The position numbers and the translations under genes were made by a program. From positions 62,001-126,000 of the forward strand of contig JBDSQB010000002.1 of NCBI GenBank assembly GCA_039930045.1: a stretch of 64,000 bases of DNA, in the 5' to 3' direction. Every line of letters starts with the position of its first letter. Position 1 is the stretch's first letter. This stretch comes from Chthoniobacterales bacterium (lineage in GTDB: Bacteria > Verrucomicrobiota > Verrucomicrobiia > Chthoniobacterales > DASVRZ01). The notes beneath the pieces are model-generated. The model saw only the letters and a program-made list of their open reading frames with translations. It had not been told where the DNA came from and did not search any database. Below are positions 19,165-52,448 of this stretch, piece after piece.

Positions 19165-19767
19165 TTAAATGTCGCCGGGCTCGCCGCCGTGGCCGTGACT
19201 TTCATTGTCATCACTGTTGGCCAGTCCATCGCCGTCCATGTCGTCATCGTCGGCGTTGTCGTGACCGTCACCATCAATGTCATTGTCATCGCCGTTTTCA
19301 TGACCATCGCCATCGATATCGTCGTCTGTGCCATTTCCGCGGCCGTCACCATCGATATCGTTATCGTCACCGTTTTCGTGGCCGTCACCGTCGATGTCAG
19401 TGTCGGTCTGGTCGTCGATGCCATCGCCGTCAATGTCGTGTTCGCGGGTGGAATCATCCGCCAGGTGGTCGCCGTCCATGTCTTTTTCGGCGAGCGCGTC
19501 GTCTTTCAAACGATCTGCGTCGATGTCCTTCTCAGCGGCGCTGCCGTTGTTGAGATGATCGCCAATGTAGTGGCCCCGAAGCGGACCTTTGCGGCAAAAC
19601 CCACCATCGACGTTGCGGTCGAGTCGATTGGGAATGCCATCATTGTCGATGTCCAGATCGGAGATATTCGGAATGCCGTCGTGATCGAGATCGGGAGCCG
19701 AGGCCAACGCAGCCACGGAACTGGTGAGGAGAATGCAGAAGGTGAGAGGAATCAGGATGGGTTTCAT
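19165..19767 (-). CDS. Secreted Asp-rich calcium-binding-type repeat protein
   Basis: A 200-residue exported protein. A signal peptide ('MKPILIPLTFCILLTSSVAA', then 'LASA') is followed almost at once by repeated acidic loops: 'DLDHDGIPNISDLDIDNDG', then many copies of D-I-D-G-D-G-x-x-N-G-x-D-D-N. The D-x-D-x-D-G-x-x-D spacing is that of EF-hand-like / thrombospondin type-3 calcium loops, usually seen in extracellular proteins. The central part (about 60-110) is less regular. The gene has the best promoter match in the window (19788-19816). The DNA of the repeat is itself a tandem array and prone to copy-number change. Confidence 0.75.
   Translation of the reverse strand: MKPILIPLTFCILLTSSVAALASAPDLDHDGIPNISDLDIDNDGIPNRLDRNVDGGFCRKGPLRGHYIGDHLNNGSAAEKDIDADRLKDDALAEKDMDGDHLADDSTREHDIDGDGIDDQTDTDIDGDGHENGDDNDIDGDGRGNGTDDDIDGDGHENGDDNDIDGDGHDNADDDDMDGDGLANSDDNESHGHGGEPGDI
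19180..19440 (-). repeat. Tandem DNA repeats encoding D-x-D-G loops
   Basis: Inside the Asp-rich gene, units resembling GATATCGATGGCGATGG / CACGAAAACGGTGACGATAA recur about every 36-40 bases. They encode the repeated acidic calcium-loop motif. The similarity between units at DNA level suggests recent duplication. Confidence 0.6.
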
Positions 19768-45742: not shown

Positions 45743-46342
45743 TCATTGTTGGTTGCGTTGCGTCGTGCCCAGCTGCCTGCCGGGTTCCTTCGACCTGCGG
45801 AGGGCGATGGCGATTGGGCGTGAGACAGGTTCATCCCGATCTGGCACACGCCAGGAGGATGGAGGAGGCTCTGGGGAAAGGGATGCGGACAAATCGTTCA
45901 CGATGTCCGTCACGGACAAACCCGGCGGCTTGAACGTGGCTGCGGGTTTTGCGACGCTCTGTGGCAGCAGCGGAAAAAGAAGATCCATGGAGGATTCGCT
46001 GCCGGAGCAGACGCGCAGGCCGAGGCTTTGTGCGATTTGCACCACCAGCGGTTCTCCGGTCAGCACTACGCTCCCCGTCCGGTCGGCGAGGTAGAGAAGG
46101 AGGGATTCACGGTGCGTCAGGCGGCGCAGCGGCTGTTGAAAGATCAGGAAAAAGTCTTCTTCCTCTGGCGCGAGCTCCATCAAGTGCAATGGCACCTCTC
46201 TTTGCAAGCTGGCCAGATGCGGGCGGCGCAAAAACTGCCCGCGCGTCACCCATCCAACGACCTTTCGCGCCGCCCACGTCTGGGTCTGGCCCGACTCATG
46301 CAATCGGGAAAGCTGCCGGATGTCGTGAATGGCCAGGTTCAT
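45743..46342 (-). CDS. PIN-like domain protein (putative toxin)
   Basis: A 199-residue protein whose centre resembles the second half of a PIN nuclease domain: 'LTHRESLLLYLADRTGSVVL' followed by 'TGEPLVVQIAQSLGLRV' matches the acidic-helix / strand / helix pattern of 'DAxxLAxA...ALLTxDxxL'. The first acidic position of a classical PIN ('D-x-S') is not obvious, so nuclease activity is uncertain. The C-terminal third is Ser/Pro-rich. Its ATG overlaps the stop of the XRE-ImmA gene as ATGA, a typical arrangement for a toxin coupled to its antitoxin. Confidence 0.55.
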   Translation of the reverse strand: MNLAIHDIRQLSRLHESGQTQTWAARKVVGWVTRGQFLRRPHLASLQREVPLHLMELAPEEEDFFLIFQQPLRRLTHRESLLLYLADRTGSVVLTGEPLVVQIAQSLGLRVCSGSESSMDLLFPLLPQSVAKPAATFKPPGLSVTDIVNDLSASLSPEPPPSSWRVPDRDEPVSRPIAIALRRSKEPGRQLGTTQRNQQ

Positions 46343-47403
46343 GGATAGATCTCCCATTCACTGCTAAATTCTTCCTCAGATTTCCCGGCCAGCATGGCTG
46401 CTTTGTCCAGGCTGAGGCATTTCTCCGCCACCCCGCGCTGGAGGAGCAAATCAAACCGGCGCGGCGTTTCATCAAAGGGACATTCCCCTGGATCCTGTGT
46501 GCGATACCCTTGCGCGGACCACCTCGCCCAGATGCGAGTCAAAGTCGATTCTGCCAGCACTCCCAGGGTGCCAGCCCGGCTGAGTATGGCCGCGCAAGAG
46601 ATTCCATGGATGGACTTGAGATTTTTCAGTTCGGCCAAAGAAATATGCTGCCGACGGGAGCCGATCTCGGCCAGGAAAGTCTCTCTGGGCAGCAGCATCG
46701 CGCCGGCAAAGCGATGACACAGCTTTTCGCGGGCTTTTTCGTCAAACGCATCAGCCGCAAACTGCAGCACGATATGGCCCAGCTCGTGCAACGCACTGAA
46801 GCGCCGCCGATCCACCGTATAGCGGGAGTTCAAAGCCACCACATCGCGCGGGCCAGCCTTTCCAGAAAACCCGTCGAACCCGGAGGGGGCCTCCAGCAGA
46901 TGAACCAGAATATGTTTCGCCTCCAGCAGCCCGACCACCGAGGGAATGGGAGCCGTGCCCATCTTCCAGAGCTTTCGCAGTTGATCGGCTGCCGCCTCCA
47001 CGTCTTCTGCTTTCTCAACACGGTGTCCCGCCAGAGGATTGATGAACACATCCGTCAGCCCCACCAGCTCCTCCAATTCCGTGTATCGCTCGAAAAAATC
47101 GGAAGTGATTTCCCGGATCGACTCCTCCTCCTTGACCCCAAGGCTGGAGCGTTTGCGAAAATCCACCCGTCCGAGGCGGGAGGTGAGAGGACGGACAAAG
47201 AAATCTTCCGACAGCCCCAGTATCTCGCACAGCGCGATCACGATGGAAGGCGACGGATGCATCGCTCCTTTTTCATATTTGTTGAGGGCGGCGGCTGAAA
47301 CCTGCCCCCCCAACTTTTCGGCCAGATCTCGCAGAGACCACGCATGACGCTTGCGCGCCTGGAGCAGGCGAGTGCCGAAAAGAGTGGTGGCTGCGGGAAT
47401 CAT
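46339..47403 (-). CDS. XRE-family regulator fused to ImmA/IrrE metallopeptidase (DUF955)
   Basis: A 354-residue protein. Residues about 8-65 form a helix-turn-helix ('LLQARKRHAWSLRDLAEKLG', 'VSAAALNKYEKGAMHPSPSI') and residues about 180-260 the zinc peptidase, with the motif 'HELGHIV' in 'RFSALHELGHIVLQFAADAF' and 'CHRFAGAMLLPRETF'. Such fusions usually control a mobile element or act as the antitoxin of a coupled toxin gene; ImmA/IrrE enzymes cleave repressor proteins. It heads a minus-strand three-gene operon. The ATG at 47403 is chosen; a TTG 39 bases upstream overlaps the predicted -35 box. Confidence 0.88.
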   Translation of the reverse strand: MIPAATTLFGTRLLQARKRHAWSLRDLAEKLGGQVSAAALNKYEKGAMHPSPSIVIALCEILGLSEDFFVRPLTSRLGRVDFRKRSSLGVKEEESIREITSDFFERYTELEELVGLTDVFINPLAGHRVEKAEDVEAAADQLRKLWKMGTAPIPSVVGLLEAKHILVHLLEAPSGFDGFSGKAGPRDVVALNSRYTVDRRRFSALHELGHIVLQFAADAFDEKAREKLCHRFAGAMLLPRETFLAEIGSRRQHISLAELKNLKSIHGISCAAILSRAGTLGVLAESTLTRIWARWSAQGYRTQDPGECPFDETPRRFDLLLQRGVAEKCLSLDKAAMLAGKSEEEFSSEWEIYP

Positions 47404-47413
47404 GCTTGTTGAC

Positions 47414-47442
47414 AGGATGCAGGCATTCGTCTTTTTCGTCAA
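47414..47442 (-). promoter_or_regulatory. Candidate promoter of the XRE-ImmA/PIN cassette
   Basis: On the minus strand TTGACG (47437-47442) lies 17 bases from CATCCT (47414-47419). The -10 is weak. TTGAC and GTCAA arms (47409-47413 and 47438-47442 on the + strand) flank the promoter as an inverted repeat, which could be an autorepression site for the XRE protein. The start of transcription would fall within a few bases of the ATG, giving a nearly leaderless message. Confidence 0.4.
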
Positions 47443-47522
47443 TGCGTTATTTTGAAGTCACTCGCTTTTGTTGCCAGGGCGATAAATCTGCTATCTCCCT
47501 GTGGATCAACCGCTTAGAAAGA

Positions 47523-47882
47523 ATGAGTGAGGCACCCCCATCATTTTCCTTAAAAATAATCGCCGCTGCCACTGCACTTTTCCTGCCGGATCATCGTCTT
47601 GTTCCGTTGGACAACAGGCTTGCGCCATTGGAACCAAGGCTTGTTCCAACGGAATCAAGGCCGGTTCCAGCGGTTCTTCGCGTGAAACCAACGGAACCAC
47701 TCCTGGTTCCATGGGTTCAAGGAGTCGTCCCGATAGGAACTTGTCTCGGTCCCAAGGGTTCTGCGCTTGTTCCCAATGCGATCAGCGAGTGTTCCACTGG
47801 TGCAACGTCTCGACCCGCTGGCAAATGTCCGTTGAACACGGCTTTCGGATTCCTTTTGACGCTTTCTCGAAACTTCTTTTAA
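47523..47882 (+). CDS. Doubtful ORF with heptapeptide repeats (L-V-P-x-E-x-R)
   Basis: An open frame of 119 residues from the ATG at 47523 covers the 21-bp repeat array, so it reads as heptads such as 'LVPLDNR', 'LAPLEPR', 'LVPTESR', 'LVPWVQG'. Because the DNA unit is nearly palindromic, the opposite strand also gives an open frame with similar heptads ('ALIPLEQ', 'ALVPMAQ'). Open frames on both strands are therefore expected from the repeat itself and are not evidence of a protein. No homologue is recognised. Confidence 0.2.
   Translation: MSEAPPSFSLKIIAAATALFLPDHRLVPLDNRLAPLEPRLVPTESRPVPAVLRVKPTEPLLVPWVQGVVPIGTCLGPKGSALVPNAISECSTGATSRPAGKCPLNTAFGFLLTLSRNFF
47577..47807. repeat. Array of 21-bp near-palindromic tandem repeats (about 11 units)
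   Basis: Eleven consecutive 21-base units can be laid in register with no gaps. The best are at 47598 (CTTGTTCCGTTGGACAACAG), 47619 (CTTGCGCCATTGGAACCAAG) and 47640 (CTTGTTCCAACGGAATCAAG), each completed by G. The approximate consensus is CTTGGTTCC-NNN-GGAACCAAG, an inverted repeat. Units decay toward the right end, where some shift by one base. The array lies between the XRE-ImmA promoter and the polysaccharide operon. Confidence 0.85.
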
Positions 47883-48017: not shown

Positions 48018-48836
48018 TTGAAGACCATCCTTGAACCCGGCCGTGCCGAGAAAAACTATTGGCGCGATCTTTGGCGCTACCGCGAACTCTTCCAAGTGCT
48101 CGCCTGGCGCGATCTCTCGGTCCGTTACAAGCAGACCATCATTGGCGTTGCCTGGGCGTTGATCCGGCCATTCCTCACGATGGTCGTCTTTACCGTCATT
48201 TTCGGCAGGGTCGCCAAACTTCCCTCGGAAGGCAGCACGCCTTACGCCCTCATGGTCTTCGCTGGGATGTTACCCTGGACCTTCTTCGCCACCGCCTTAT
48301 CTGAGGCGTCTGGCAGTTTGGTTTCCAACTCCAACCTCATCTCCAAGGTCTATTTCCCCCGGCTCATCGTTCCGACCGCCACCGTCGTGGTCGCCTTTGT
48401 TGATTTCCTAATCAGCTTCATCATCTTGGTGGGCATGATGGTTTGGTTTCGCTTCCTACCCGGTTGGCAGATATTGCTCCTGCCGGTCTTTGTCCTCATC
48501 GCCTTCCTCACCTCCCTCGGCCCCGGCCTCTGGATAACCGCGCTCAACGTGAAATACCGGGACTTCCGTTACGTCATCCCGTTCATCGTCCAATTCGGTC
48601 TCTATATCTCTCCCGTCGGTTTCTCCAGTTCCGTCATTCCGGAAAAATGGCGGTTGCTCTACTCGCTCAATCCCATGGTCGGCGTCATCGACGGCTTCCG
48701 CTGGTGCCTGCTAGGCGGACAGTCCGCGATCGACTGGCAGGCCTTCGGACTTTCCCTCGGCGTCACCGCCTTCTTCCTCTGGCTGGGAATCCGCCAATTC
48801 AGGAAAACCGAGAAGAGCTTTGCGGACCTGATTTGA
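48018..48836 (+). CDS. wzm: ABC-2 type polysaccharide export permease (Wzm/TagG-like)
   Basis: A 272-residue inner-membrane permease with six predicted helices. 'YRELFQVLAWRDLSVRYKQT' and 'IGVAWALIRPFLTMVVFTVI' form the amphipathic start and first helix typical of Wzm/KpsM/TagG; 'KVYFPRLIVPTATVVVAFVD', 'LWITALNVKYRDFRYVIPFI' and 'LYSLNPMVGVIDGFRWCLLG' are the other family blocks. It exports lipid-linked polysaccharide with the ATPase encoded at 51198. The start is TTG at 48018, and no ATG fits. The ops-like element lies just upstream. Confidence 0.93.
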   Translation: MKTILEPGRAEKNYWRDLWRYRELFQVLAWRDLSVRYKQTIIGVAWALIRPFLTMVVFTVIFGRVAKLPSEGSTPYALMVFAGMLPWTFFATALSEASGSLVSNSNLISKVYFPRLIVPTATVVVAFVDFLISFIILVGMMVWFRFLPGWQILLLPVFVLIAFLTSLGPGLWITALNVKYRDFRYVIPFIVQFGLYISPVGFSSSVIPEKWRLLYSLNPMVGVIDGFRWCLLGGQSAIDWQAFGLSLGVTAFFLWLGIRQFRKTEKSFADLI

Positions 48837-51197: not shown

Positions 51198-52448
51198 ATG
51201 AGCGATACTGTAATTAGCGTAGAAAACCTGTCTAAATCATACCTAATCGGCCACGATGGCCCCCAAGAGCGCTACCATTCGTTACGCGATACTATCGTCC
51301 GCCATAGCAAGAACTATGTCCGAAAAGCTGTGGACATGGCCCGTGGGCGCCAGATCATCCAAGGCGACACTGTTGAAGAATTCTGGGCGCTCAAGGACGT
51401 CTCCTTCGAGGTGAAACGCGGTGAGGTGCTCGGCATCATCGGCCGCAATGGCGCGGGAAAATCAACCCTGTTAAAGATTTTATCTCGCATCACCGAGCCT
51501 ACATCCGGGCGCGTTGAACTAGATGGCCGGGTTGCCTCTCTGCTTGAAGTCGGAACCGGCTTCCATCCGGAACTGACGGGCCGCGAGAATATCTTCCTCA
51601 ACGGGGCCATCCTCGGCATGTCCAAGGCGGAAATAAGAAAAAAATTCGGTGAAATTGTCGATTTTGCGGGAGTTGAAAGATTCCTCGATACCCCGGTCAA
51701 GCGCTACTCTTCCGGCATGTATGTGCGACTCGCTTTTGCTGTCGCCGCCCACCTTGAACCGGAAATCCTGATCATCGACGAGGTGCTGTCGGTCGGCGAT
51801 GCTGAATTCCAGAAAAAGTGCCTTGGGAAAATGCAAGATGTGGCAAAGGGTGGGCGGACGGTCTTGTTTGTGAGTCATAACATGGGCGCGGTGCAGTCCC
51901 TGTGCAGCCAATGCCTTATATTGGCTTCTGGGATGAAGTTGGATTCAGGAATTCCAGACAAGATAATAGGGCTCTACAATAAACAATACTCAGAGAATCC
52001 AAAAATCACTAAAGATCTAACGATGGGGAGTGACTTGATCTTAAGTGAATGCACCGCAACCCCACAAGTATTGCACTCGGGCGAAGACCTTACGATAATA
52101 TTTGAATTTTATACTAGTGCGTCAATTCCGGTGTCAGAATATTGTGCACTAATTTATAATGACTTAGGACAGCGTGTTGCGATTTGTGACATGAGATCGG
52201 ACAAGTCAATATTCTTCCAGAAGAACCAAGTCATTAAGACGGTTATCCAGATTAACAACATTCCGCTTATCGAAGGAGTTTACCATGTCGGACTTTGGAT
52301 TGACTCAACAGCAATCCGCAAAGATTTCCTAGATCTGGCAAGTTTCGAAATCTTATCCCCGATTAGAAGTGTAGCTCCTTACGAAAAGCCACTTAGAGGC
52401 TTTGTAGAACTAAATCAGTCGCACAGCATTCTTCAGGAGAGTCAATAG
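51198..52448 (+). CDS. wzt: Polysaccharide ABC exporter ATPase with C-terminal sugar-binding domain (Wzt-like)
   Basis: A 416-residue ATPase. The nucleotide-binding domain (about 1-245) has Walker A 'GIIGRNGAGKSTLLKIL', the H-motif-type 'LLEVGTGFHPELTGRENIFL', signature 'RYSSGMYVRLAFAVAAH' and Walker B 'ILIIDEVLSVGDAEF'. The C-terminal part (about 265-416) is a beta-rich domain like Wzt_C, which in O-antigen exporters recognises the finished chain end. DNA composition drops sharply at the junction: 33 of 60 bases are G or C at 51361-51420 but only 18 of 60 at 51961-52020. So the substrate-recognition domain appears to have been exchanged. Confidence 0.93.
   Translation: MSDTVISVENLSKSYLIGHDGPQERYHSLRDTIVRHSKNYVRKAVDMARGRQIIQGDTVEEFWALKDVSFEVKRGEVLGIIGRNGAGKSTLLKILSRITEPTSGRVELDGRVASLLEVGTGFHPELTGRENIFLNGAILGMSKAEIRKKFGEIVDFAGVERFLDTPVKRYSSGMYVRLAFAVAAHLEPEILIIDEVLSVGDAEFQKKCLGKMQDVAKGGRTVLFVSHNMGAVQSLCSQCLILASGMKLDSGIPDKIIGLYNKQYSENPKITKDLTMGSDLILSECTATPQVLHSGEDLTIIFEFYTSASIPVSEYCALIYNDLGQRVAICDMRSDKSIFFQKNQVIKTVIQINNIPLIEGVYHVGLWIDSTAIRKDFLDLASFEILSPIRSVAPYEKPLRGFVELNQSHSILQESQ

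Follow-up and report, generated by a model that had tools for sequence, protein, structure and literature searches.

What is the array of degenerate 21-bp repeats that lies between a regulator gene and an exporter gene in a 64,000-nucleotide stretch of a Chthoniobacterales genome (the window)? The array, at 47577–47807, occupies a divergent spacer. On one side an XRE helix-turn-helix and ImmA/IrrE (M78) regulator is encoded on the minus strand (46339–47403, with a likely ATG at 47403 and a TTG at 47442 also possible). On the other, an ABC-2 polysaccharide/O-antigen exporter permease is encoded on the plus strand (48018–48836), and the ABC ATPase gene lies further along, at 51198–52448. The distances in the initial annotation, about 175 bp to the XRE–ImmA start and about 210 bp to the exporter, agree with the 174 bp and 210 bp that we measured.

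Period, symmetry and reading frames of the window array

Ten units follow one another in strict 21-bp register without an indel (47577–47786), with the consensus CT.GttCC...GG......G. and a core of about GTTCC-NNN-GGA that has a weak dyad. In the eleventh unit (47787–47807) the core is displaced by +1 bp, and faint traces continue to about 47830. Ten of the eleven gapless units described in the initial annotation are therefore in register, and the last is shifted. The array is degenerate, with a lag-21 identity of 0.51 in its best 210-bp window. When the entire 64 kb was dinucleotide-shuffled 30 times, the highest value was 0.40, and 0 of 2,000 shuffled versions of the intergenic region equalled the observed identity at any lag in the range 15–30. 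The 21-bp periodicity at 47577–47807 is real and far beyond chance, as had been proposed. Tandem Repeats Finder reported just 3.4 copies (47598–47669). BLAST showed the array sequence to be unique in its own genome, and the search of related genomes that had been suggested as a check, carried out by pattern, revealed no such array in 57 relatives.

Each unit had been described as a palindrome of the form CTTGGTTCC-NNN-GGAACCAAG. We found that no unit matches this form, and that it occurs nowhere in the genome even with up to two mismatches allowed. The best 21-bp frame agrees with 14 of the 18 fixed positions and individual units contain 1–5 of 9 self-complementary pairs, on which grounds we rejected an operator array in which each unit is a palindrome. 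The sole palindromic signal in the window array is a weak dyad in its averaged column profile (p = 0.010). Dyad symmetry was present in 3 of the 13 non-coding arrays of this genome that are described below; palindromy does not define the class.

The array had also been said to read open on both strands as L-V-P heptads. This holds for the plus strand, on which two frames are open across the array, including the L-V-P frame of a mechanically called 158-amino-acid open reading frame (ORF; 47406–47882, plus strand). On the minus strand it holds only in part: none of the three frames runs through the full array without a stop, and the L-V-P frame, a 68-amino-acid ORF starting at 47712, is open only from there downwards, over about half of the array. 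The 158-amino-acid ORF had no Pfam match and no codon-phase conservation, and we judged that it is not a gene. A test for codon-phase conservation gave p > 0.1 in every array of the class, which bears out the earlier suspicion that the open frames are a side effect.

Arrays of the same period across the genome

We scanned 864 kb of the same genome for self-similarity, including the window; this is about 25% of the genome and comes from few contigs. A lag-specific test, which measures the excess at one lag over its neighbouring lags, identified 14 arrays at exactly 21 bp, 13 of them non-coding. Among other periods from 13 to 45 bp it gave one array at 18 bp and the 42-bp harmonic, and otherwise none. 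A column-based test found eight strong arrays in the first 464 kb, all at 21 bp, and three at 21 bp in the second 400 kb together with several codon-like patterns whose periods were 15, 18 and 24 bp. By density, the whole genome may contain about 50 arrays, an extrapolation from an uneven sample. Weak pattern matches also led to a second locus with a 21-bp period and a different, CGGACGAATT-type unit.

Most arrays have 6–14 units in which some columns are nearly invariant and the remaining columns near random. Conservation over columns was uneven relative to uniform divergence in 11 of the 13 non-coding arrays (p < 0.05), although the arrays were picked by a periodicity score that itself favours some conserved columns. 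Across the class the conserved columns are clustered within the unit (combined p = 3e-7); for the window array alone this clustering was not significant (p = 0.51). In the variable columns, the similarity of neighbouring units was 0.314 as compared with 0.303 expected, and neighbours were no more alike than distant units. Direct repeats with a core at 20–22-bp spacing, by which iterons are recognized, were present. The cores themselves differ from array to array. Only two arrays, L055 and L065, share a core, and in a cross-array BLAST these were the only two to resemble each other, at 70% over 181 bp and largely because of that core.

The arrays were found in spacers of co-directional and divergent orientation and, by appearance, in several convergent ones. 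Some lie at the 3′ ends of genes and some where no promoter is expected. With gene calls based on Pfam matches and codon-position GC rather than a gene finder, the flanking genes were unrelated to one another, including those for DprA/FAD oxidoreductase, a histidine kinase, a Roc-COR GTPase, cobalamin adenosyltransferase and a citrate transporter; Pfam searches of 20 ORFs beside arrays revealed no gene in common. REP-like GTTCCCAA..TTGGGAAC hairpins were considered as a constant partner and rejected, as they occur near a few arrays only. At one locus, REP-like hairpins of sequence GTTCCCAAACTCCAGTTTGGGAACG, also seen near some other arrays, lie at L115:14100–14235.

Beyond this genome, 543 kb of relatives from the same order contained no array at any period, and 535 kb from genomes of the class and phylum contained only a few simple repeats. 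A search of 388 genomes of the phylum for three GGACNAATT cores returned arrays in the window genome only, with two weak matches elsewhere (3 mismatches), and the same search of viral contigs gave 1 match. Another genome of the order, G051, did contain 21-bp arrays, and the class is therefore not confined to one genome. One of these, degenerate and with an unrelated core (AGTTGGTG), lies about 1.2 kb upstream of a homologue of the XRE–ImmA gene; the other, at the start of a contig and also with core AGTTGGTG, is nearly homogeneous, which indicates that amplification of a 21-bp segment does occur. Such arrays are not described in the literature that we searched by wording and by core sequence, most subscription journals lying outside that search.

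Arrays of similar geometry in Bacillus and other bacteria

When named genomes were searched for GGACNAATT occurring three times in 21-bp register, 25 stretches from several phyla were recovered. One is a set of GGACAAATT iterons, spaced by 21 bp, that adjoins a Rep3 initiator gene on a Vibrio contig. In Bacillus pakistanensis (L200–L219 in genome G434), GGACAAATTA recurs at 21-bp steps in about 35 places by pattern. All 20 of the loci that we read are intergenic and one-sided, with 2–6 units and no inverted partner. The element begins with TTTGTCGAACGGTCAATATAT or a close variant, followed after about 10 bp by the GGACAAATTA units, and resembles BOX-type repeats in combining a fixed prefix with a variable number of modules.

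Two orthologous GGACAAAT arrays around a NERD gene allowed a comparison of Bacillus with Rossellomorea. The arrays had no indel, the core was kept at 64 of 64 positions, and 22 of 104 variable bases had changed as compared with 0 of 64 in the core (Fisher p = 2e-5); the cores of the first pair were chosen by the search pattern in both species, which biases the comparison somewhat, and the second pair was unselected in Bacillus. The Bacillus arrays share their geometry with those of the window genome, and in core sequence they are similar to L055 and L065. They may nevertheless be a separate element, as the fixed prefix TTTGTCGAACGGTCAATATAT was not seen in the window genome. The existence of this analogue in culturable species makes the question directly testable.

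Two other genomes contained conspicuous arrays. In Metabacillus mangrovi, a long array with dozens of AATTTGTCCG units and apparent 102-bp super-repeats extends over L091:5080–5860, and there are several such loci in the genome. In a 2-Mb Bacteroidales genome (G438; L076, L079, L082 and L085) we observed about 100 pattern matches, with AATTAGTCCTGAGC arrays facing each other as inverted groups.

Possible origin and role of the arrays

The window array lies 174 bp from the start of the regulator in a divergent spacer, has a weak dyad and places its units on one helical face, all of which would suit a multi-site operator for the XRE–ImmA regulator or the exporter operon. However, homologues of the regulator in eight other genomes of the order (E < 1e-20) have no copy of the window array in their flanks, the G051 flank described above being the only one with any 21-bp array, and equivalent arrays adjoin unrelated genes and sit between convergent 3′ ends. 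Dispersed copies at unrelated loci without a regulator, which the initial annotation had named as evidence against its own proposal, do exist for the class, although the exact window sequence is unique. We consider this operator unlikely. The general idea of a multi-site DNA-binding array on one helical face fits the data, whereas its link to the adjacent XRE–ImmA gene is unsupported. We regard it as barely credible that the array encodes a heptapeptide-repeat protein (LVPxEPx), even though its plus-strand frame is open throughout and a genuine coding 21-bp array exists in the genome; that array (L063:17098–17265, contig C5) is nearly homogeneous, with 0.87 identity, and lies within an 848-amino-acid ORF as HFKHLPE-like heptads. 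No array shows codon-phase conservation, the 158-amino-acid ORF belongs to no recognizable family, and some units of the Metabacillus array have a stop after the core frame CGG ACA AAT. A repeat element that is transcribed into RNA, such as REP/BIME-like hairpins or a repeat RNA, is quite improbable. The window array does fold better than its shuffled sequences (z = −3.8), and a position at the 3′ end of a gene is seen for some arrays, but two others show no such advantage over their shuffles (z = +0.8 and +1.0), Rfam searches of the window and L055 matched only a tRNA and not the array, and an exact 21-bp DNA register would be needless for an RNA. RNA structure is not a feature common to the arrays. 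REP/BIME and BOX-type repeats are likewise dispersed and intergenic, but what is shared here is a 21-bp DNA period rather than a sequence or a hairpin, and the cores differ.

Tn7/TniAB/IS21-type ends have several sites of about 21–22 bp in one direction, and the arrays, being similar in layout, could represent intact or remnant termini of Tn7-, Tn5053-, IS21- or Mu-like transposons with transposase sites at that spacing. Tn7 ends carry GACAAAATA-type TnsB sites, which resemble GGACAAATTA, the core found in the Bacillus arrays. We nonetheless think this an unlikely origin, because no rve domain (PF00665) was detectable in the window genome; the same search was positive in 7 of 14 control genomes. 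A search for Mu-transpos_C gave no match, controls included, and so says nothing either way. Furthermore, no transposase lies beside any array examined, the Bacillus arrays were one-sided in all 20 loci read, and the arrays here are longer than such ends, reaching 14 units. For most arrays we found no inverted partner array within 1.5 kb; at L115, however, inverted units that keep the 21-bp register (L115:14020–14272) come after the array at L115:13852. A neutral minisatellite, that is, a product of slippage that decayed and has no function, would likewise consist of tandem units of fixed length. The near-homogeneous array in G051 demonstrates the amplification that this requires, and the uniqueness of the window array within its genome fits as well. 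Decay should affect all columns alike, however, whereas here some columns stay and others are near random. There are also almost no indels at about 50% divergence, a single period is used, neighbouring units are not similar in the variable columns, and the Bacillus orthologues conserve the core. We therefore doubt that the arrays are such relics.

The reading that we prefer, with a probability of about 0.5, is that the window array is not an XRE operator but one locus of a dispersed class of non-coding, iteron-like putative binding arrays phased at two helical turns. In the iterons of plasmid and phage-plasmid origins, for example those of Rep3 initiators, a conserved core likewise recurs in direct repeats at intervals of about two helical turns. 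The arrays here differ in that they have no adjacent initiator gene (the window neighbours being XRE–ImmA and the ABC-2 exporter), are estimated by extrapolation to occupy dozens of chromosomal loci, and have a different core at nearly every locus. Each core would be a recognition site for a putative DNA-binding protein, and the two-turn spacing would place all sites on one face of the helix, which could allow cooperative assembly of the protein along the DNA, as at iterons. The arrays probably arose by tandem amplification of a 21-bp segment followed by divergence everywhere but in the core.

The role of these putative binding arrays is most likely structural, for example in a local nucleoprotein filament, in chromosome organization or as a boundary. 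Several arrays occupy positions at which a promoter would not be expected, and we therefore favour such a role over control of neighbouring promoters, including a switch for the XRE or exporter genes beside the window array. If a protein does assemble on the arrays, this would be a new way for bacteria to mark or organize the chromosome. What this reading explains least well is that a single genome contains so many different cores. One protein could hardly read a dozen of them, which means postulating either many proteins or one with tolerant recognition. To our knowledge, neither operators nor iterons, transposon ends, REP elements or minisatellites account for the combination of one exact period with many cores dispersed along a chromosome. 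A bolder and doubtful proposal is that the arrays form a genome-wide system of fixed geometry with locus-specific 'addresses', read by a diversifying family of DNA-binding proteins or by one programmable protein, and that Bacillus, Bacteroidales and others use this principle with a single core in each genome. If true, such an address system would constitute an unrecognized and widespread layer of bacterial chromosome organization.

We also recorded two minor features of this genome. A weak candidate for a Y1 (RAYT-like) transposase is present at C1:49515, and Tandem Repeats Finder identified a degenerate 39-bp tandem repeat at 19188–19404 of the window, separate from the 21-bp array.
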